This document shows positions 18,422 through 26,598 of a DNA stretch of 64,000 nt, piece after piece. Every line of letters starts with the position of its first letter. Positions within the stretch are counted from its first letter, which is position 1. The stretch is taken from assembly GCF_006540305.1 (NCBI RefSeq), contig NZ_BJOR01000001.1, positions 7,006,001-7,070,000 on the forward strand, read 5' to 3'. This DNA is from Streptomyces sp. 6-11-2. Its GTDB lineage: Bacteria; Actinomycetota; Actinomycetes; Streptomycetales; Streptomycetaceae. The position numbers were made by a program, and so were the translations under genes. The notes below the pieces were generated by a model that was given only the letters and a program-made list of their open reading frames with translations, did no database searches and was not told the DNA's origin.

Positions 18422-21139
18422 TCACAGCCAGCTGTCGAACCGCCGGATGAACCAGGTCTTCACCAGCTGGGTGAGGACGCAGTATGCCAGCAATGTGCCG
18501 ATCAGCCACGGGAAGTAGCTCACGGGCAGCGGCTGCAGACCGAGGGACGCACCGAGCGGGGTGAAGGGCAGCGCGACTCCGAAGGCCATCACGGCCGCCG
18601 TCATGACCATCACCGGCACGGACGCCCTGGACTGGATGAACGGGATCTTGCGGGTGCGGATCATATGCACGATCAGGGTCTGGGAGAGCAGGCCCTCGAT
18701 GAACCAGCCCGACTGGAAGAGACTCTGGCTGCCGGTGGTGTTGGCGGAGAAGACGTGCCACATCAGCAGGAAGGTCGTGATGTCGAAGATCGAGCTGATC
18801 GGTCCGATGAACACCATGAAGCGGCCGATCCCGCGCGCGTCCCAGTTCCGCGGCTTGCGCAGGTACTCGGGGTCCATGCGGTCCCAGGGGGTGGCGAGCT
18901 GTGAGATGTCGTAGGACAGGTTCTGCACCAGCAGGTGCAGCGGCAGCATCGGCTGGAACGGGATGAAGGCGCTGGCGACCAGGACCGAGAAGACGTTGCC
19001 GAAGTTCGAGCTGGCCGTCATCTTGATGTACTTGATGGTGTTGCCGAACGTCTGCCGGCCCTGCAGCACTCCCTGTTCGAGGACGGTGAGGCCCTTCTCC
19101 AGCAGGATGATGTCGGCCGACTCCTTGGCTATGTCGACGGCGGTGTCGACGGAGATGCCGACGTCCGCGTCGCGCAGCGCGGCCGCGTCGTTGATGCCGT
19201 CGCCGAGGAAGCCGACGGTGTGGCCGTCGCGCCGCAGAGCGCGTACGATACGCGCCTTCTGCACCGGGTTGACCTTGGCGAAGACCGTGGTGCGGGCGGC
19301 GAGTTCGGTCAGCCGGCCGTCGTCGAGGCCGTCGATGACGGCTCCGGTGACGACCTCGCCCACGTCGATGCCGACGTCGGCGCAGACCCGGGCGGCGACC
19401 AGTTCGTTGTCGCCGGTGACGACCTTGACGGTGATGCCCTTGTCGGCGAGGGCGCGCAGCGCCCGGGCAGCGTCGTCCTTGGGCGGGTCGAGGAAGGCGA
19501 GGAAGCCGGCAAGGGTGAGTTGGTCCTCGTCGGCCACGGTGTAGGTGTCGCGGGTGGCGGGCAGGGAGTGGGTGGCGACGGCCAGGACGCGCAGGCCCCG
19601 CCGGTTGTGGTCCTGGGCGATGCGGGTGACCTGACGGCGAAGCTCCCCGGTCAGTTCGACCCGCCGTCCGCGATCGAGTACGTGGGTGCACAGTGCGAGG
19701 ACCTCCTCGACCGCGCCCTTGGTGATCAGGGTGTGCTCGGCGGCGCTGTCCACGCCGTCGTCGTACGTCGTGCGGCTCAGGACCACGGACATGCGGCGGC
19801 GGGCGAAGTCGAACGGGATCTCGTCGACCAGGGTGAAGCGGGCGTCGACGACGATCTCCTCGGCCTCGGCGACGCGGTCGAGGACCGCCTGGTCCATCAG
19901 GTTGCGCAGGCCGGTCTGGAAGTGGCTGTTGAGGTAGGCGTACTGCAGCACCTCGTCGTCGTCGCGGTCGTGCGCGTCCAGGTAGCGGTCCAGGACGATA
20001 CGGTCCTCGGTGAGCGTGCCGGTCTTGTCGGTGCACAGCACGTCCATCGCGCCGAAGTCCTGGATCGCGTTGAGCCGCTTGACCACGACCTTGCGCCTGG
20101 ACAGGGCCACCGCGCCCCGCGCCAGGTTCGCGGAGACGACCATGGGCAGCATCTCCGGGGTGAGTCCGACCGCCACCGCGACGCCGAACAGGAACGCCTG
20201 GCCCCAGTCGCCCTTGGTGAGGCCGTTCACCGCGAACACCACCGGGACCATGACGAGCATGAACTTGATCAGCAGGTAGCTGACCCTGCGTACGCCGGTG
20301 TCGAAGTTCGTCTGCGGGCGCGTGCCCGCCAGGGAGCCGGCCATGGACCCGAAATAGGTGCCGGATCCGGTGGCCACCACGACACCGGTGGCGGTTCCGG
20401 AGGTCACGGAGGTGCCCATCAGGCAGAGGTTGTCGGCCTCGACGGGATCGTCGGTCTCCTGCTGACCGAGGTCCCGGGTGCGGGTGTCGGCCTTGTGCAC
20501 CGGCAGGGACTCACCGGACAGGGCGGCTTGACTGACCGTCAGGGCCTTGGCGCTCAGCAGCCGGAGGTCGGCGGGCACCAGATCTCCGGCGGCGAGCTCG
20601 ATCAGGTCGCCTCCGACGACTTGCTCCATGGGCACGTCGAGGGCGGAGGGAGCCGAGCCGCCCGCCGGGTACCGGCGCACCCTGGTCGTCGTGGTCACCA
20701 GCGCCTTGAGCGCGGCGGCCGCCTTGGCGGACCGGTACTCCTGCCAGAACCGGAGCAGCCCGCTGAGCAGCACCATCGTCGACAGGATCAGGACGCCCGG
20801 GTCGGCCGGGTCCTGCCAGTACATCACGGTGGCCAGGAAGAGCAGTACGGCGATGAACGGGTTCCCGTACGCCTTGAGCAACTGGATGTACCACCCCGGC
20901 GTGCGCTCGTGAGCGACCACGTTGGCGCCGTCCCGCTCCAACCGGGCCGCCGCCTCGGCACAGGTCAGGCCCGGCCCGGGGCTGTCGGCGTCCCGCAGCA
21001 CCTGCGCGGCGGGTGTGCGGCTGATCTCCGCCAGCCGCCTGCCTGCCGCACGGGTGCGGGCCTCCAGTTCCGCGGTCCGGCGCTCGCGGCGGCTGCGGCC
21101 GGGCGGGGCCAGGCGCTCCGGGGTCAACGTGTTGGTCAT
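18422..21139 (-). CDS. mgtA: Magnesium-translocating P-type ATPase
   Basis: A 905-residue P3B ATPase that imports Mg2+ across the membrane. It shows TGE-type motif LSGESLPVHK, phosphorylated Asp371 in CTDKTGTLTE, nucleotide site TGDNELVA and hinge GDGINDAAAL. C-terminal membrane helices include a Trp/Phe-rich SLFQSGWFIEGL segment typical of MgtA/MgtB. The start ATG at 21139 follows GGGAGGTACTTCG. The roughly 600-base leader upstream has an M-box riboswitch, a leader peptide and a hairpin, so expression should rise at low Mg2+. The substrate assignment is supported by that riboswitch. Confidence 0.95.
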   Translation of the reverse strand: MTNTLTPERLAPPGRSRRERRTAELEARTRAAGRRLAEISRTPAAQVLRDADSPGPGLTCAEAAARLERDGANVVAHERTPGWYIQLLKAYGNPFIAVLLFLATVMYWQDPADPGVLILSTMVLLSGLLRFWQEYRSAKAAAALKALVTTTTRVRRYPAGGSAPSALDVPMEQVVGGDLIELAAGDLVPADLRLLSAKALTVSQAALSGESLPVHKADTRTRDLGQQETDDPVEADNLCLMGTSVTSGTATGVVVATGSGTYFGSMAGSLAGTRPQTNFDTGVRRVSYLLIKFMLVMVPVVFAVNGLTKGDWGQAFLFGVAVAVGLTPEMLPMVVSANLARGAVALSRRKVVVKRLNAIQDFGAMDVLCTDKTGTLTEDRIVLDRYLDAHDRDDDEVLQYAYLNSHFQTGLRNLMDQAVLDRVAEAEEIVVDARFTLVDEIPFDFARRRMSVVLSRTTYDDGVDSAAEHTLITKGAVEEVLALCTHVLDRGRRVELTGELRRQVTRIAQDHNRRGLRVLAVATHSLPATRDTYTVADEDQLTLAGFLAFLDPPKDDAARALRALADKGITVKVVTGDNELVAARVCADVGIDVGEVVTGAVIDGLDDGRLTELAARTTVFAKVNPVQKARIVRALRRDGHTVGFLGDGINDAAALRDADVGISVDTAVDIAKESADIILLEKGLTVLEQGVLQGRQTFGNTIKYIKMTASSNFGNVFSVLVASAFIPFQPMLPLHLLVQNLSYDISQLATPWDRMDPEYLRKPRNWDARGIGRFMVFIGPISSIFDITTFLLMWHVFSANTTGSQSLFQSGWFIEGLLSQTLIVHMIRTRKIPFIQSRASVPVMVMTAAVMAFGVALPFTPLGASLGLQPLPVSYFPWLIGTLLAYCVLTQLVKTWFIRRFDSWL

Positions 21140-21409: not shown

Positions 21410-21481
21410 TCAACGCCGCCGGAACGAGGCGGCCGTCGAGGCGGTGCGACTGTGACTCGGACCATTGCTGTCGCGGTCCAT
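21410..21481 (-). CDS. Leader peptide between riboswitch and mgtA
   Basis: A 23-codon reading frame starting ATG at 21481 and ending TGA at 21410-21412. It begins MDRDSNGPSH and ends SFRRR. It has one of the strongest ribosome binding sites in the region: GGAAGGAGG, 8 bases from the ATG. It lies after the M-box and before mgtA on the same transcript. The peptide is Ser/Arg-rich. Its small size and position suggest a regulatory upstream ORF whose translation could affect folding or Rho access downstream; this is inference. Confidence 0.55.
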   Translation of the reverse strand: MDRDSNGPSHSRTASTAASFRRR

Positions 21482-21559
21482 GTCTCTCGCCTCCTTCCGG
21501 CCGGGGCGCGCGGTGCGCCGTACGACTAGGCAAGGAGCGACCGGGCGGATCCCGGCTCA

Positions 21560-21725
21560 CCCCAACTCGTCAGAGCTTTGGCACTCCACGGCGTGATCCC
21601 CTTCGCGGGGAAGCCACTTGGGGTCACCCCTTGGGCCGGGGAGACCTGTCCTGATCCGGAGCGTCTCTCGACGGGTGGGATCAGTGGCCTGTGTCCGTGA
21701 AGACGCCTCACCGAACGAGGTGCCT
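21560..21725 (-). ncRNA. M-box (ykoK) magnesium riboswitch
   Basis: Read on the minus strand, the segment starts CCTCGTTCGGTGAGGCGTCT (21720 down to 21701) and ends near GAGTGCCAAAGCTCTGACGA (21586 down to 21567). Both blocks match the conserved ends of M-box RNAs, which in Bacillus read GUUAGGUGAGGC and AGUGCUAAAGCUCUACGA. Between them are GGACACAGGCCACTGATCC and further paired arms. M-box RNAs bind Mg2+ and switch off Mg2+ transporter genes. The downstream gene is mgtA, as expected. Boundaries are approximate. Confidence 0.88.
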
Positions 21726-21745
21726 GCTGCCTTCGAACGTCCCAC

Positions 21746-21776
21746 ATGGTAGCCCACTACTTGCGTATGGACGCAA
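21746..21776 (-). promoter_or_regulatory. Predicted mgtA promoter
   Basis: On the minus strand TTGCGT (complement of 21771-21776) and TACCAT (complement of 21746-21751) are separated by 19 bases. Transcription would start near 21738, just before the riboswitch. The -35 box is one half of an inverted repeat described as operator A. Confidence 0.45.
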
Positions 21777-21780
21777 CTAG
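21757..21780. promoter_or_regulatory. Operator-like inverted repeat A
   Basis: TTGCGT-ATGG-ACGCAA at 21761-21776, extended by CTAC and CTAG on the two sides, forms a 24-bp near-perfect palindrome. The same pattern occurs at 21856, 24083 and 26579. Here it overlaps the -35 box of the predicted mgtA promoter. Confidence 0.6.
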
Positions 21781-21851
21781 GTCTTCGAAGCGATCCGAAA
21801 AATGCCTGTATTTGACACAGTTGAAGGGCGTCGCGATCCCTCGAAAATTGC

Positions 21852-21875
21852 TCACTTGCGTGATCGTGCAACTGT
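21852..21875. promoter_or_regulatory. Operator-like inverted repeat B
   Basis: TTGCGT-GATC-GTGCAA at 21856-21871 with flanking AC and CT. It lies about 100 bases before the DUF6542-like gene. TTGAAG (21821-21826) and AAAATT (21844-21849), 17 bases apart, would place a transcription start close to this repeat, so a bound protein could block that promoter. Confidence 0.55.
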
Positions 21876-21969
21876 TGGCGCCGCTTCTTCGTCTCACGGG
21901 TGGCAGGGCGGCGATGTCGAGGGCGACCGGGACCCGTCGCCGCATTCCAGGATCAGCGAAAGCGGACGT

Positions 21970-22512
21970 ATGCGTGATCAGCAGGAACGGACCGTCGGTG
22001 GCGTCGGTGCGCAGGGGCGGGGTCGCTCGACCGGGCAGGTGCGAGTGGTCTCGCAGCGCGGTGCCGGGGAGCGCGCGCACTCCCGGGGTGCGTCGCGCAG
22101 GAGGCGCCCGCAGCGAGGAACAGGTGGCGCGTCCCAGGTCGGCGGGCCCGGGATCGGCATCGCCGTCGCGGCGCTGGCAGGCCCTGCGCTGCTGGGGGCG
22201 GCCGTGGATGCGGTCGCCGGTCACGGTCCCGGCTGGGGCGTGGTGTCCGGGGCGACGGCAGGCGCACTCCTCGCGGCTCTGCTGGCGGTCCGCGGTCGCG
22301 TCCTGGGATGGGTGGCCCCGTTGCCGGTTCTGGCCGTGGCCGCTGTCACGGCCGGCTGGGCGCTGACATCCGGCGGTCCGCCTGCCACACGACTGGTGCG
22401 CTGGGCCGTGGAGGCGTTCCCGGCGATGGCCGCCGCGGAGTGTGCGGTGCTCGGCGTCGTGTCGGCGGCGGCCGTCCTCCGGTCCGGTGCGGGGAGGGCC
22501 CGCCGTGTCTGA
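21970..22512 (+). CDS. Small membrane protein, DUF6542-like
   Basis: A 180-residue protein. The first 80 residues are Arg/Gly/Gln-rich and probably cytoplasmic. They are followed by four hydrophobic segments (IGIAVAALAGPALLGAAV, VVSGATAGALLAALLAV, VAPLPVLAVAAVTAGWAL, AAAECAVLGVVSAAAVL). The layout resembles actinobacterial DUF6542 proteins, but the assignment is from memory. ATG at 21970 is chosen because the frame upstream crosses operator B and has no coding character. It overlaps the LCP gene by 8 bases and is translationally coupled to it. Confidence 0.65.
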   Translation: MRDQQERTVGGVGAQGRGRSTGQVRVVSQRGAGERAHSRGASRRRRPQRGTGGASQVGGPGIGIAVAALAGPALLGAAVDAVAGHGPGWGVVSGATAGALLAALLAVRGRVLGWVAPLPVLAVAAVTAGWALTSGGPPATRLVRWAVEAFPAMAAAECAVLGVVSAAAVLRSGAGRARRV

Positions 22513-24022
22513 GGCCATGGGGCGCCGTCGGCGCCGCGCCGCTGTCCGCGGTGGGCGACGGTCGCTGGGGATACGCATGCTGCGCGTGGTGGTGTGGACG
22601 GTGTCGTCGGCCCTGCTGCTGGGATGCGGAGCGACCTGGTACGCGTACCACACCCTGATCAGTGGGCTCACGACGTCCGACGCGCTGGACGCGGTGCGCA
22701 AGAAGGCGCCTCCGCGCCTGGACGACGCCGTGAACCTGCTGCTGATCGGTCTGGATTCGCGCAAGGACATGAACGGCAACGACCTGCCCCGGAAGTTCGT
22801 GCAGCGCGAACTGCACGCCGGGTCCAGCAGTATCGGCTACTACAACACCAACACCCTGATCCTCATGCACATCCCGGCCGGCGGCGGCAGGGTCCAGGCG
22901 TTCTCCATACCCCGCGACGACTACGTGCAGACCCTCAACGGCGACGGGTCCGTACAGGGCCACTACAAGATCAAGGAAGCGTACGCCAACGCCTACACCG
23001 GCGCCCACGACAGGTACGCCCGGCAGGGGGTCGAGGGCGCCGAGCTGGAGGCCAGGAGCCGTGAGGCCGGACGCGAGGCGACGCTGGCGACGGTGCAGGA
23101 CTTCAGCGGCGTGCCCATTGACCACTTCGCCGAGGTCAACCTGCTGGGTTTCTACGACATCGCCAAGGTCCTGCAGCCCATCACGGTGTGCCTCAACCAC
23201 CCGGTTCAGGACCGCTATTCGGGAGCGGACTTCCCGGCGGGCGTGCAGCGGCTGAACGCCCGGCAGGCCCTGGCCTTCGTGCGCCAGCGGCATGGCCTGG
23301 ACGCCGGGGACCTGGACCGCACCCGCCGGCAGCAGGCATTCATCTCCAGCGTCACCCACCAGCTCAAGAGCCAGGGAGTGTGGAGCAGCCCGTCCAAGCT
23401 CCAGGGACTGTTCGGCACGGTGAAGAAGGACATCGTCCTCGACACCTCCTGGAACGTCCTCGACTTCGCCCAGCAGGCCACCAACCTCACCGGCGGGAAC
23501 GTCGTGTTCCACACCCTGCCCATCGAGGGCTTCGCGACCCGCAACGGCCAGGACGTCAACCTGGTCGACCCGGCGAAGATCAAGGCGATGGTGCGACAGG
23601 AGTTCGGTGCGACCCCGTCGCCGACCGATGGCGCGGCGGGCACCGCCGCGGCAGCGCCCGCCACCGTCGACGTACGCAACGGAAACGGCGCCGAGGGCGA
23701 AGCCTCCGCCGCGCTGTCCTACCTGGCCGAGCTCGGATACACGGCCGGCACGACCGGCAACGTGGCCGCGCAGCCCGCCACCACCGTCGTCTACGGACCC
23801 GGTGCGCAGCAGGCGGCGCAGCAGATCGCCGGCCACTTCAACGCCGCTGCCCCGGCTGCCGGTTCTGCCGTGCCGGCCGGACATGTCCTGGTCACCCTGG
23901 GTGAGAGCTACGCGCTGCCCAGCCGGCAGGCGCCGTCACCCGCCGCCACGGAGCCGAGCTCGTCGTCTCCCGCCGACTCGGGCCCCGCTGTGAAGGCGGG
24001 TGGGGTGCCGTGCGTCAACTGA
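22505..24022 (+). CDS. LCP (LytR-CpsA-Psr) family protein with LytR_C domain
   Basis: A 505-residue membrane-anchored enzyme that in known members joins anionic polymers to peptidoglycan on the outer face of the membrane. One transmembrane helix (about 25-45) precedes the LCP domain (about 75-270), with LLIGLDSR, SIPRDDYV and FVRQRHGLDAGDLDRTRRQQ. The usual SDT acid motif reads TNT here (Asn116 replaces Asp). A LytR_C domain (VDVRNGNGAEGEA) and a Ser/Pro-rich tail follow. The start is GTG at 22505 with GGGGAGG upstream. It shares an operon with the small membrane protein. Confidence 0.9.
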   Translation: MSEAMGRRRRRAAVRGGRRSLGIRMLRVVVWTVSSALLLGCGATWYAYHTLISGLTTSDALDAVRKKAPPRLDDAVNLLLIGLDSRKDMNGNDLPRKFVQRELHAGSSSIGYYNTNTLILMHIPAGGGRVQAFSIPRDDYVQTLNGDGSVQGHYKIKEAYANAYTGAHDRYARQGVEGAELEARSREAGREATLATVQDFSGVPIDHFAEVNLLGFYDIAKVLQPITVCLNHPVQDRYSGADFPAGVQRLNARQALAFVRQRHGLDAGDLDRTRRQQAFISSVTHQLKSQGVWSSPSKLQGLFGTVKKDIVLDTSWNVLDFAQQATNLTGGNVVFHTLPIEGFATRNGQDVNLVDPAKIKAMVRQEFGATPSPTDGAAGTAAAAPATVDVRNGNGAEGEASAALSYLAELGYTAGTTGNVAAQPATTVVYGPGAQQAAQQIAGHFNAAAPAAGSAVPAGHVLVTLGESYALPSRQAPSPAATEPSSSSPADSGPAVKAGGVPCVN

Positions 24023-24082
24023 GTCGCTGACGCTCGTGCCGAACTCCGCCCGGGCGCAGCGCCGTCTGGCATACTTCTTCTA

Positions 24083-24113
24083 TTGCGCAATTGAACAAGT
24101 ATTGGGGTTTGCT
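24083..24113 (+). promoter_or_regulatory. Predicted promoter with weaker operator-like repeat C
   Basis: TTGCGC (24083-24088) and TTTGCT (24108-24113) are 19 bases apart, a layout like the mgtA promoter. TTGCGC-AATT-GAACAA at 24083-24098 matches operators A, B and D except for two bases in the right arm. It lies 84 bases before the TPM-like gene. Confidence 0.45.
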
Positions 24114-24181
24114 CGTTCCCTCCGTGCACCGACCTGGTTCCGGAGGCGGGGCGGTCACTCCCTCGCAAGGAGGTCTCAGCC

Positions 24182-25549
24182 ATGCCTGTTTCGCCACGGT
24201 CTCGCTTCGCCCGGGTCCTCGCGGCCGTGGGCGTGACAGCTCTTGTGGGGCTCGCCCCGCCGGCTTTCGGTGCGCCGGCGGCCACGGACCCCGGCACGGG
24301 GGCTGTGGCGGAGGCCTTCAAGAAGGGGCCGGTGTACGTCGACCCGCGAGCCGCGGGGGAGTTGCCGAAGTCCGCGGCCGACAAGCTCGCGGCGAAGATC
24401 GAGGCCGCGGACAAGCCGGTCTTCGTCGCGGTGCTGCCCCGGTCCGCCGACTACCCGCAGGCGTCCCTGTTGCCCGACCTGCGCTCACTCACCGGCATCA
24501 GCGGGGTGTACGCCGTGCGCCTGGGCGACTTGTTCAACGCCAAGGCGGACCATCAGGTGATGTCGCAGAGCGCCGTCGACAACCTCCGTGGAGCGGTGCA
24601 GCGTTCCTACGCCTCGGACACGGAGAGACAGCTGAACGTGTTCGTCGACCAGGCCGTCCGGCAGGCGCAGGGGCACGCCCCAGCGTCCTGGAAGGACAGC
24701 GATATGGGCGGCTCCGGCAGCGGCGGGCTGATGGTCGGCGGCCTGCTCGCGGCCGGGGCGGCCGGGGGCGGATACGCGCTGTACCGGCGGGCGAGGAAGC
24801 GGCGGGAGGCCCAGCAGAGGGAGTTGGAGGCGTTGCGGGTGGTGGTGGACGAGGACATCACCGCCTTCGGCGAGGAACTGGACCGGCTGGCCTTCTCCCC
24901 GTCCGAGCCAGGGGCCACCGACGAGATGCGCAACGACTACTCCCACGCTCTCGACGCCTATGAGCTGGCCAAACGGCAGATGGCCGCCGCGGTCGAGCCG
25001 CAGGACGTGCAGCCGGTGACCGCCACGCTGGCCGACGGCCGCTTCGCTCTGGCCACCCTGGCCGCCCGTCGCGGTGGAACCCCCCTGCCCGAGCGTCGTG
25101 TGCCCTGCTTCTTCGACCCCCGTCACGGTCCCTCGGCCGACGATGTGAACTGGTGCCCGCCCGGCGGCGTGCCGCGGCTGGTCCCCGCCTGTGCGGAGGA
25201 CGCCGCCCGCGTCACTCAGGGCGGGCAGCCGATGACGCGAATGGTCGACACCGGCCAGGGCGCCCAGCCTTACTGGAACGCCGGCCCGGCCTACGCGCCT
25301 TGGGTGGGCGGTTACTTCGGCGGCGCGGGTGCGGTGGTCGGCGGCCTGCTCGCCGGCACGCTGCTGGGCAGCCTGCTCAGCGCGCCGTCCGCCTTCGCCG
25401 GCTCCGGTGACGGCGTCGCGTCCGCGCCCGATCTGCCGGACGGCGGCGAGTTCTCCGGGGCGGACTTCAGAGCCTCCGACTTCGCGGGGGGATTCGACGG
25501 TGGTTTCGGGGCGGACGGCGGGGGCGACTTCGGTGGCGACTGGGGGTGA
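24182..25549 (+). CDS. Exported/membrane protein with TPM-like domain
   Basis: A 455-residue protein of unknown function. It has a signal peptide (about 1-30, ending AFGAP). A TPM-like alpha/beta region (about 40-165) contains VFVAVLPRSA, GVYAVRLGDLF and VDQAVRQA. A membrane helix (GGLMVGGLLAAGAAGGGYALY) follows, then a charged helical segment (RRARKRREAQQRELEALR). A second hydrophobic stretch (VVGGLLAGTLLGSLLS) precedes a Gly/Asp/Phe-rich tail (FDGGFGADGGGDFGGDWG). TPM proteins often act in membrane or photosystem maintenance. The start is ATG at 24182, with AAGGAGG upstream. Confidence 0.75.
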   Translation: MPVSPRSRFARVLAAVGVTALVGLAPPAFGAPAATDPGTGAVAEAFKKGPVYVDPRAAGELPKSAADKLAAKIEAADKPVFVAVLPRSADYPQASLLPDLRSLTGISGVYAVRLGDLFNAKADHQVMSQSAVDNLRGAVQRSYASDTERQLNVFVDQAVRQAQGHAPASWKDSDMGGSGSGGLMVGGLLAAGAAGGGYALYRRARKRREAQQRELEALRVVVDEDITAFGEELDRLAFSPSEPGATDEMRNDYSHALDAYELAKRQMAAAVEPQDVQPVTATLADGRFALATLAARRGGTPLPERRVPCFFDPRHGPSADDVNWCPPGGVPRLVPACAEDAARVTQGGQPMTRMVDTGQGAQPYWNAGPAYAPWVGGYFGGAGAVVGGLLAGTLLGSLLSAPSAFAGSGDGVASAPDLPDGGEFSGADFRASDFAGGFDGGFGADGGGDFGGDWG

Positions 25550-25614
25550 TCACACGACCCCCTCGGGGGGAGAGAGACAGGCGGTCAATTGCACAACAGG
25601 GGAGGGGTGGAGCC

Positions 25615-25881
25615 GTGCCGGACACGACCACGGCCGAGGGTCTGCTGGAAGAACTGACCGGGGGATGTCCGCCGCCGCCGGAAGAGCAGGTGCGGAGCAC
25701 CTACCGGCCGGTCGAGGTGTGTGACGGGGCCGGGTGGACGTGGCCGGGCACCGTCACCGGATGGTGGAGCAGCCCTGAGGGGGCCACCATGTGCCGGCTG
25801 AGGCTGTCGGGGTGCGCCTCTTCACGCTGGGTGGAATTCGACTCCGACCGGATCGCCTTGCTGGTCCAGGGCGGCACATGA
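25615..25881 (+). CDS. Small hypothetical protein
   Basis: An 88-residue soluble protein with no domain I recognise. It has an acidic helix (TTAEGLLEELTGG), a Pro run, and a Trp-rich beta part (GAGWTWPGTVTGWWSS, SSRWVEFDSDRIALL) that resembles small barrel proteins. The GTG start at 25615 follows GGGGAGGGG at good spacing. It lies 65 bases after the TPM-like gene and may be in its operon. Confidence 0.65.
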   Translation: MPDTTTAEGLLEELTGGCPPPPEEQVRSTYRPVEVCDGAGWTWPGTVTGWWSSPEGATMCRLRLSGCASSRWVEFDSDRIALLVQGGT

Positions 25882-26010
25882 CGCCTTCCGCTCCGACCGG
25901 CGGCGAGTTCCCGCTGTCGCTTCTGCCGGCCGGTTGAAGGCGTTCCGGTGGGCCGCGTCCGGATCCCGCAGGCGCTGCTGATCCCCAACGGGACGGCGCC
26001 GCGGCCGTGG

Positions 26011-26463
26011 TCAGTCCCGCAGGCGGGCGGCAGCGGCGTCGGTCAGCAACCGGGCCACGTCCGCGGGCAGGCCGAGGTGGCGTACGAGCCAGGTGGCGTC
26101 ATGGCCGCGGGCGGCGAACGCCCACGCGGTGTAGAGGTGGTTGAGGGAAGGCGCACTCGGCCCCAGCAGGCGGGGGCGGACCGCTTCCATGGGGAAGCCC
26201 TCCAGGGCACGGGCGGTGAACGAGGACGTGTCCATCACCTCCAGAACGCGGCGCCGCGCCTGCCGAGTCGCCTTGCGATCAGCGCGCAGCACCACTGCGA
26301 GCAGGGCGAACGCCGTGACGGCCGCTCCCAGCAGGGCGCCGCTGATGGCCGGACGGTACGCCGCTGGGGCGGTGGTCAGGACGGTCATCTCCAGCGTGGT
26401 GAACGCGAGCACGCCGAGGACGGCGGTGCCGGCGCCGTCGCGCGGGTGTGGCAGGGCCTTCAT
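26011..26463 (-). CDS. Small two-helix membrane protein, unknown
   Basis: A 150-residue protein with two hydrophobic segments (TAVLGVLAFTTLEMTVLTTA and ISGALLGAAVTAFALLAVVL). A basic stretch (RADRKATRQARRR) and a soluble C-terminal half with LYTAWAFAARGHDATWLVRHLGLPADVARLLTDA follow, suggesting a small helical domain. No family is recognised. The start ATG at 26463 follows GGAAGGACGG. Its promoter appears to contain operator D, which ties it to mgtA and the TPM-like gene. Confidence 0.7.
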   Translation of the reverse strand: MKALPHPRDGAGTAVLGVLAFTTLEMTVLTTAPAAYRPAISGALLGAAVTAFALLAVVLRADRKATRQARRRVLEVMDTSSFTARALEGFPMEAVRPRLLGPSAPSLNHLYTAWAFAARGHDATWLVRHLGLPADVARLLTDAAAARLRD

Positions 26464-26564
26464 CACCAACCGTCCTTCCTTCTTTCCGTGTTCGCTCGTC
26501 GTGCCGGAGGACGATGGAGGCGCGCGGGACGGGATGACGAGGCGCCTCCTGTTGCCGTCCAGCA

Positions 26565-26598
26565 GCATAACCCCGTACTTGCGTGATCGCGCAAATAC
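26565..26598 (-). promoter_or_regulatory. Predicted promoter overlapping operator-like repeat D
   Basis: TTGCGT-GATC-GCGCAA at 26579-26594, flanked by GTAC and ATAC, is the most symmetric member of the repeat set. On the minus strand TTGCGC (complement of 26589-26594) and TTATGC (complement of 26565-26570) are 18 bases apart, so the repeat again covers the -35 box of the gene ending at 26011. Confidence 0.55.

Follow-up and report, generated by a model that had tools for sequence, protein, structure and literature searches.

Control of Mg2+ uptake by a regulatory protein is known mainly from PhoP/PhoQ, the two-component system of enteric bacteria, in which transcriptional control is combined, at mgtL/mgtA, with control by RNA and leader peptide; leader peptides of the MgtL/MgtP type are encoded by short translated open reading frames (ORFs), carry early acidic and proline residues and control the downstream gene. 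The usual Gram-positive solution is the M-box riboswitch. According to two reports, an M-box lies upstream of NrmT, an NRAMP-related Mg2+ transporter found mostly in Clostridia and Deltaproteobacteria (PMC4072509), and a mycobacterial M-box is followed by a small ORF (Rv1805A) before the regulated gene, the encoded peptide being called specific for mycobacteria (PMC12810186). Here, we examine a 64,000-nucleotide stretch of Streptomyces sp. 6-11-2 (NZ_BJOR01000001.1, positions 7,006,001 to 7,070,000; the window in what follows), in which a palindrome recurs near mgtA, and propose that it quite probably serves as operator in a small regulon for Mg2+ homeostasis, present in part of the genus Streptomyces and under an unlinked repressor of the ArsR/SmtB family. 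Loci (L), genomes (G) and contigs (C) are cited by our own labels where they have to be told apart.

The mgtA locus shares with PhoP/PhoQ and mgtL/mgtA the layering of transcriptional and RNA or leader control, although the protein involved would be a one-component ArsR-type regulator rather than a two-component system. Its riboswitch belongs to the M-box (ykoK) family (RF00380), which occurs before mgtA and in NRAMP loci; it differs from the usual arrangement in that its transcript would start at a promoter with a palindromic operator, that a leader ORF follows and that it is rare in the genus. The succession of M-box and conserved short ORF resembles, by its description, the Rv1805A system, and in the accessible part of that report neither an operator nor an ArsR protein like those proposed here is described (PMC12810186); similarly, an M-box before an NRAMP-family gene recalls NrmT (PMC4072509). 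What is new is the candidate ArsR-type repressor with its operator set, while M-box control of NRAMP genes (PMC4072509) and the M-box with an upstream ORF (PMC12810186) are already known; in openly available full texts, judged by titles and abstracts, no description of the regulator, the motif or the regulon was found. The elements that carry the proposal are the following:

21757..21780 (no strand assigned): putative operator 1, palindrome TAGTTGCGTCCATACGCAAGTA as read on the minus strand, upstream of the M-box/mgtA transcript; 18.1 bits with the profile R1 described below
21851..21874 (no strand assigned): putative operator 2, upstream of the DUF/LCP operon; R1 15.4 bits; same place before the orthologous operon in L041
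26574..26599 (no strand assigned): putative operator 3, preceding the gene of the small membrane protein; R1 17.2 and 17.1 bits on the two strands
18422..21139 (minus strand): mgtA, Mg2+-translocating P-type ATPase; NCBIfam NF011702 1316.7 bits, TIGR01524 1291.5 bits; start picked by eye
21554..21726 (minus strand): aptamer of an M-box (ykoK) Mg2+ riboswitch, within the mgtA leader; 129.7 bits with Rfam RF00380 against a gathering threshold of 44
21410..21481 (minus strand): leader ORF MDRDSNGPSHSRTASTAASFRRR, 23 residues, between M-box and mgtA; a diverged member of the MDxxSSPGHxRP family

The first-pass annotation, made from the letters of the window, had named mgtA, a label that the NF011702 and TIGR01524 scores support, and had noticed three near-identical palindromes and a weaker fourth, with none seen elsewhere in the window. 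A pattern search of the 64 kb places the exact sequence TTGCGYNNNNRYGCAA only at 21761-21776, 21856-21871 and 26579-26594, whereas 200 dinucleotide shufflings of the window held 0.02 exact sites on average and never more than 1. The weaker palindrome, at 24083-24098 before a TPM-like gene, was dropped: it has 2 mismatches, a level at which 19 matches occur in the window and 24.5 would be expected by chance, and R1 did not report it at E<=10. In the whole genome (8.7 Mb, 3 contigs) the exact 16-mer occupies 8 places, 3 of them within the 4.8 kb that the window sites span; 5 of the 8 stand at promoters of the proposed regulon and 3 are not assigned to the set.

It is in related Streptomyces that the palindrome acquires its context. 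From 43 assigned sites (42 distinct) we derived the consensus TAnTTGCRY-N4-RYGCAAnTA, in which the invariance of the TTGC/GCAA core, required by the search, is no evidence; what counts is the conservation at the outer TA pairs and at the R/Y positions. The 19-base form TTGCGYNNNNRYGCAAGTA has 12 exact matches in 10 of 295 genomes of the genus. Five stand before M-boxes (that of our mgtA, and of an NRAMP-type gene in four other genomes), five more before the leader ORF MDxxSSPGHxRP or a variant of it (with MgtC, an mgtC remnant or a small protein), one is the window site at 26579 and one precedes a MalR-like LacI gene (L026). Since the number of these matches is no enrichment in itself, their positions are the evidence. 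In wider stretches, palindromes are also found upstream of genes for an ABC transporter, MgtC and NRAMP proteins, of an LCP operon and of an ArsR-family gene. The proposal of a regulon around mgtA is supported: the palindrome recurs in related genomes upstream of other Mg2+ genes, and the motif is conserved upstream of orthologs, as the first-pass annotation had required. In the L026 locus (G211), the LacI-family gene, MalR-like by its protein sequence, is preceded by the palindrome together with a number of additional TTGCG repeats; this may be another operator, which fits the pattern by chance.

A profile, R1, was built from 36 sites outside the own genome, and the run on the latter scored 150 of 1205 candidates. 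Its six best places in 8.7 Mb are the arsR gene discussed below, mgtA, a leader ORF with an mgtC remnant on contig C2, window sites 3 and 2 and the ABC transporter promoter; two weaker places, C2:33315 and C1:7142958, were left unassigned. The recovery of the window sites is only partly independent, because they defined the first pattern; the own genome's arsR and ABC sites did not enter into that pattern. Applied to 150 genomes, R1 gave a match at E<=0.1 in 8, namely the own genome, five training genomes, G014 and G011; the match in the held-out G014 lies at an ABC promoter, while in the 19 kb surrounding that of G011 none of the nine module query proteins matched. No Mg gene was recognised beside C1:744742, C1:7142960 and C2:33319, which are exact or model matches of the own genome; at C2:33319 (L183:7320; R1 14.2 bits) a TATAGT box comes after the related palindrome TTGCATCATTGCGCAA, ahead of a gene.

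Between site 1 and mgtA lie the M-box and the short leader ORF, both absent from the first-pass annotation. The M-box is rare in the genus, being found under strict filters in 3 of 101 genomes, and both of the other genomes carry the same palindrome upstream. When the window and 16 loci were scanned, 8 of 9 M-boxes had a palindrome 28-64 nt upstream (the exception, L110, had none), and an M-box was present in 7 of the 10 NRAMP-containing loci scanned (not in L041, L118 and L119). Because of the distance of 28-64 nt the palindrome is not part of the aptamer, and the riboswitch alone was set aside as the explanation. The leader ORF, MDxxSS(S)SPGHxRP, lies either between the M-box and the transporter gene or immediately ahead of mgtC:

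21410-21481 of the window (minus strand), and L036, L038-L045, L087, L089, L108, L110, L118 and L119: leader ORF occurrences

Among the 17 distinct DNA versions of MD..SPGH the bases are strongly conserved, AGT serine codons are kept and, by eye, a GGGCC/GGCCC hairpin is possible. The ORF may thus act as RNA, as peptide or as both, two roles that such conservation does not allow to separate. On the 713-kb contig C2, at C2:49165 (L036), operator and leader ORF are followed by an apparently decayed mgtC (45% over 65 aa).

The position of the palindrome within promoters is informative too. Two predicted promoters of the window overlap it:

21746..21776 (minus strand): predicted mgtA promoter, -35 TTGCGT (21776-21771) within operator 1, 19-bp spacer, -10 TACCAT (21751-21746), with the start site predicted near 21739
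26564..26594 (minus strand): predicted promoter of the small membrane gene, -35 TTGCGC within operator 3, 19-bp spacer, -10 TATGCT (26569-26564)

The coincidence of the left half-site with a -35 box, suggested earlier for three sites, thus stands for mgtA and for the small membrane gene and not for the LCP operon; LCP-type sites have no [TC]ANNNT box at 17-19 bp. Over the whole collection, such a box follows TTGCRY by 17-19 bp in 21 of 30 sites outside arsR, against a mean of 1.6 and a maximum of 7 in 2000 runs with shuffled downstream sequence and 0 in the opposite reading direction; the spacer is 19 bp at the mgtA, small-gene and several NRAMP promoters, and the box lies at 17-18 for the ABC promoters. 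A protein bound to the palindrome would therefore cover the -35 box. Downstream of operator 3, at 26520-26570 of the window (minus strand), TATGCTGCTGGACG...AGGCGCCTCGT is similar to the start of M-box leaders, TATGCTGCTGGACG...AGGCACCTCGT, as if this promoter derived from a lost M-box copy.

That no regulator gene adjoins the sites, as noted at first, is true locally, but a probable regulator is encoded elsewhere in the genome: an ArsR/SmtB-family gene whose start codon falls within a palindrome of this kind (C1:749407-749817, unlinked to the window; best match at C1:749434, 57% identity), the ORF starting at 749407 inside TTGC-ATG-GATGTGCAA. Of the 14 orthologs found at E<=1e-20 in the 295 genomes, 13 carry the palindrome across their predicted start codon (ATG or GTG); a fifteenth ArsR, of G191, was added by a second query, for which only three genomes were searched. 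In a collection of named genomes, of which the best 80 of 578 relatives were considered, TTGC-N8-GCAA lies within 120 bp of the match start in 15 of the 22 best placed and in 2 of the 58 that follow, a rank cut chosen after inspection and with L107 being the same genome as G146; the 22 include Streptomyces, Dactylosporangium and metagenome-assembled genomes assigned to Cellulomonas and Micromonosporaceae. Two orthologs score above cut-off for HTH_5 and HTH_20 and reach 81.1 and 89.7 bits with NCBIfam NF033788 (cut-off 55). The structure model is a winged helix with the helices and wing in the order of the family (pLDDT 75.8; PDB matches from E 3.4e-7), and its nearest solved relatives include HlyU, NolR, SqrR and SrnR; an earlier model from 11 sequences (pLDDT 62.5) was poor, as was its fold search, and neither was used. 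The winged-helix fold, NF033788 and a predicted operator at its own start are what this protein has in common with ArsR/SmtB repressors (HlyU, NolR, SqrR, SrnR, SmtB, CzrA), from which it differs in apparently controlling uptake instead of efflux or detoxification, in a dispersed regulon of several transporter types and in its lack of conserved Cys and of the alpha5 ligand set. Metal sensors of the alpha3/alpha3N type have conserved cysteines, and those of the alpha5 type bear an Asp/His...His/Glu ligand set on the C-terminal helix. In the 54 aligned proteins, no Cys column is conserved (2 have a Cys in the first 100 residues), and helix 86-98 keeps, among D/E/H/C, only E90 (40 of 54); the conserved polar positions are D9, D25, E39, H52, H59 and E74. 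In L082, two CorA genes (PF01544) lie beside arsR, with relatives in L105, L112 and L122 and, by eye, in L083 and L086.

The ArsR gene co-occurs with putative targets, one of which, often accompanied by MgtC, is an ABC transporter:

L037:4838-8333 (G000:C1) and orthologs: NitT/TauT-like ABC transporter, a fused double permease (two domains) and an ATPase with PF09821; no binding protein was noticed beside it, and no search was aimed at one

The ABC operon is present in 13 of 15 genomes with ArsR and in 10 of 280 others (12 of 14 and 11 of 281 without G191); ArsR is found in 7 of the 9 genomes in which the motif stands at an M-box or leader; and, over the 23 genomes with the ABC operon, the palindrome lies upstream of it in 11 of 13 with ArsR and in 1 of 10 without. 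The Fisher values of these three comparisons (7e-15, 6e-9 and 6e-4) overstate the association, because the genomes, being related, do not count as independent and owe part of the signal to common ancestry or joint transfer. A smaller number of sites in genomes without ArsR was rejected as an argument, several genomes with ArsR likewise having a single exact match.

The sites and the M-boxes, the conservation of the sites, their promoter position and their co-occurrence with ArsR are all there in the sequences; that ArsR probably binds and represses, and the signal with its sign, we infer. An ArsR dimer would cover the -35 box at most transporter promoters, TTGCRY being half-site and -35 at once, and at arsR would cover the start of a leaderless message, with the ATG or GTG inside the palindrome, resulting in autorepression; sites over the -35 box and over the own start are repressor positions. 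With ample Mg2+ the repressor would shut the genes of mgtA, the NRAMP-type proteins, MgtC and the ABC transporter, and would release them at low Mg2+; since the targets are uptake systems, repression at sufficient Mg2+ would be the coherent sign. The M-box and the short leader ORF would provide a second, RNA-level check for mgtA and for most of the NRAMP genes seen. If so, a one-component repressor would govern several types of Mg2+ transporter in Streptomyces, protein and RNA control would meet on one transcript and the ABC transporter would be flagged as a possible Mg2+ importer. A bolder form of this proposal, in which ArsR senses cytoplasmic Mg2+ directly, as a co-repressor and through a site unlike those of known ArsR metal sensors, control has three layers (DNA, RNA and ribosome) and the ABC transporter represents a new class of Mg2+ importers, seems to us unlikely.

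Several observations weigh against an ArsR-controlled Mg2+ regulon. The usual ArsR metal ligands are absent, and ArsR repressors normally leave DNA at metal excess, which is the opposite of what uptake genes would need. At its ArsR gene G219 has half a site only, and G191 has none at the start; G014, G035 and G051 carry the palindrome at an ABC or M-box promoter with no ortholog of the proposed ArsR, which suggests orphan sites or sites of another binder; and a second, different ArsR-type gene lies downstream of the CorA genes at L082:12072-12422 and L083:12035-12379. Taken singly, the R1 E-values of own-genome sites are marginal (0.015-0.2), and in the 150-genome set R1 recovered 5 of 6 training genomes at E<=0.1, missing G051, which limits its sensitivity. 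As to counts, the exact 16-mer has 12 strand matches in the own genome against 8 for the reversed control pattern, so that its total is not enriched by itself, and TTGCGYNNNNRYGCAAGTA has 12 matches overall against about 32 for a reversed control of different composition.

These counts, together with the chance level at 2 mismatches and the outcome of a 20-bp pattern allowing 3 mismatches (136 places in the own genome and 361 for its reversed control, the pattern being uninformative at such looseness), are what speaks for a recurrence by mere chance, an idea to which we attach practically no weight in view of the three exact window sites against 0.02 expected and of the recurrence upstream of orthologs in many genomes. 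Hardly credible as well is that the palindrome is a MalR/LacI-family operator only incidentally linked to magnesium: one of the 12 exact matches in 295 genomes precedes the MalR-like gene of L026, but the other 11 are at Mg-related promoters or at the window site, and the site tracks the ArsR and ABC genes. That some other unlinked transcription factor binds the palindrome, arsR being one more of its targets, is an unlikely reading, in favour of which stand the three genomes that keep the palindrome without the proposed ArsR, the MalR-like LacI gene with the same site and the second ArsR-type gene of L082 and L083; the overlap of the ArsR start with the site in 13 of 14 cases, and the lack of a palindrome at 9 of 10 ABC operons in genomes without ArsR, argue instead for ArsR, no systematic survey having covered other DNA-binding genes.

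Granted ArsR as the binder, its action and its signal have still to be weighed. The usual promoter spacer is 17 bp, and the 19 bp of the mgtA, small-gene and several NRAMP promoters exceed it, as if the long spacers (17-19 bp) needed the help of an activator; with the site over the -35 box and over the gene's own start, which are ordinary repressor positions, and with the ABC box at 17-18 bp, we hold an activating ArsR to be quite unlikely. A signal other than Mg2+ (another metal, pH or envelope stress), of which the Mg2+ genes would be the output, has to be taken more seriously and is, in our judgement, possible though short of probable. It would fit the missing canonical metal ligands and the near absence of Cys, the solved relatives of the model, the open substrate of the ABC transporter and the LCP and lytic transglycosylase genes behind some sites, whereas the targets themselves are Mg2+ systems (MgtA, M-box genes, MgtC, with CorA beside arsR in some genomes) and the M-box on the same transcripts reads Mg2+. 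Repression by ArsR of Mg2+ uptake genes thus remains our preferred reading, with the signal left open because conserved cysteines and the alpha5 ligand set are absent.

The other genes behind the window sites are the following:

21970..22512 (plus strand): conserved protein, called DUF6542 in the first-pass annotation; 59% identical to the L041 copy, from which its start was revised by eye
22505..24022 (plus strand): LytR-CpsA-Psr (LCP) protein; PF03816 2.1e-37 and PF13399; 77% identical in L041
26011..26466 (minus strand): small protein of 151 aa, its membrane label taken from the first-pass annotation; homologs in the Mg loci L108 (59%), L110 (47%) and L043 (51% over 73 aa)

Pfam at E<=0.001 gave no match for the DUF6542, TPM-like and 151-aa proteins. 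Thus, in the gene set first proposed, the LCP protein is confirmed by Pfam and the small membrane protein is kept for its homologs in other Mg loci, while the DUF6542 label finds no Pfam match and the TPM-like gene is dropped. An OsdR/DevR dormancy regulon was considered because of the nearby universal stress protein and cNMP-binding genes and was not used. As to the description of the set as one of envelope and Mg2+ genes, the latter recur, and the envelope part is weaker: window site 2 has its counterpart in G146 (L041), before the orthologous DUF/LCP operon, so that LCP support comes from two genomes, and a similar site in G191 precedes one lytic-transglycosylase gene. The sites L042:9576 and L087:8625 were rejected as LCP-linked, tblastn giving no LCP or DUF homolog there, and were retained in the motif model; the gene after L042:9576 is a transglycosylase.

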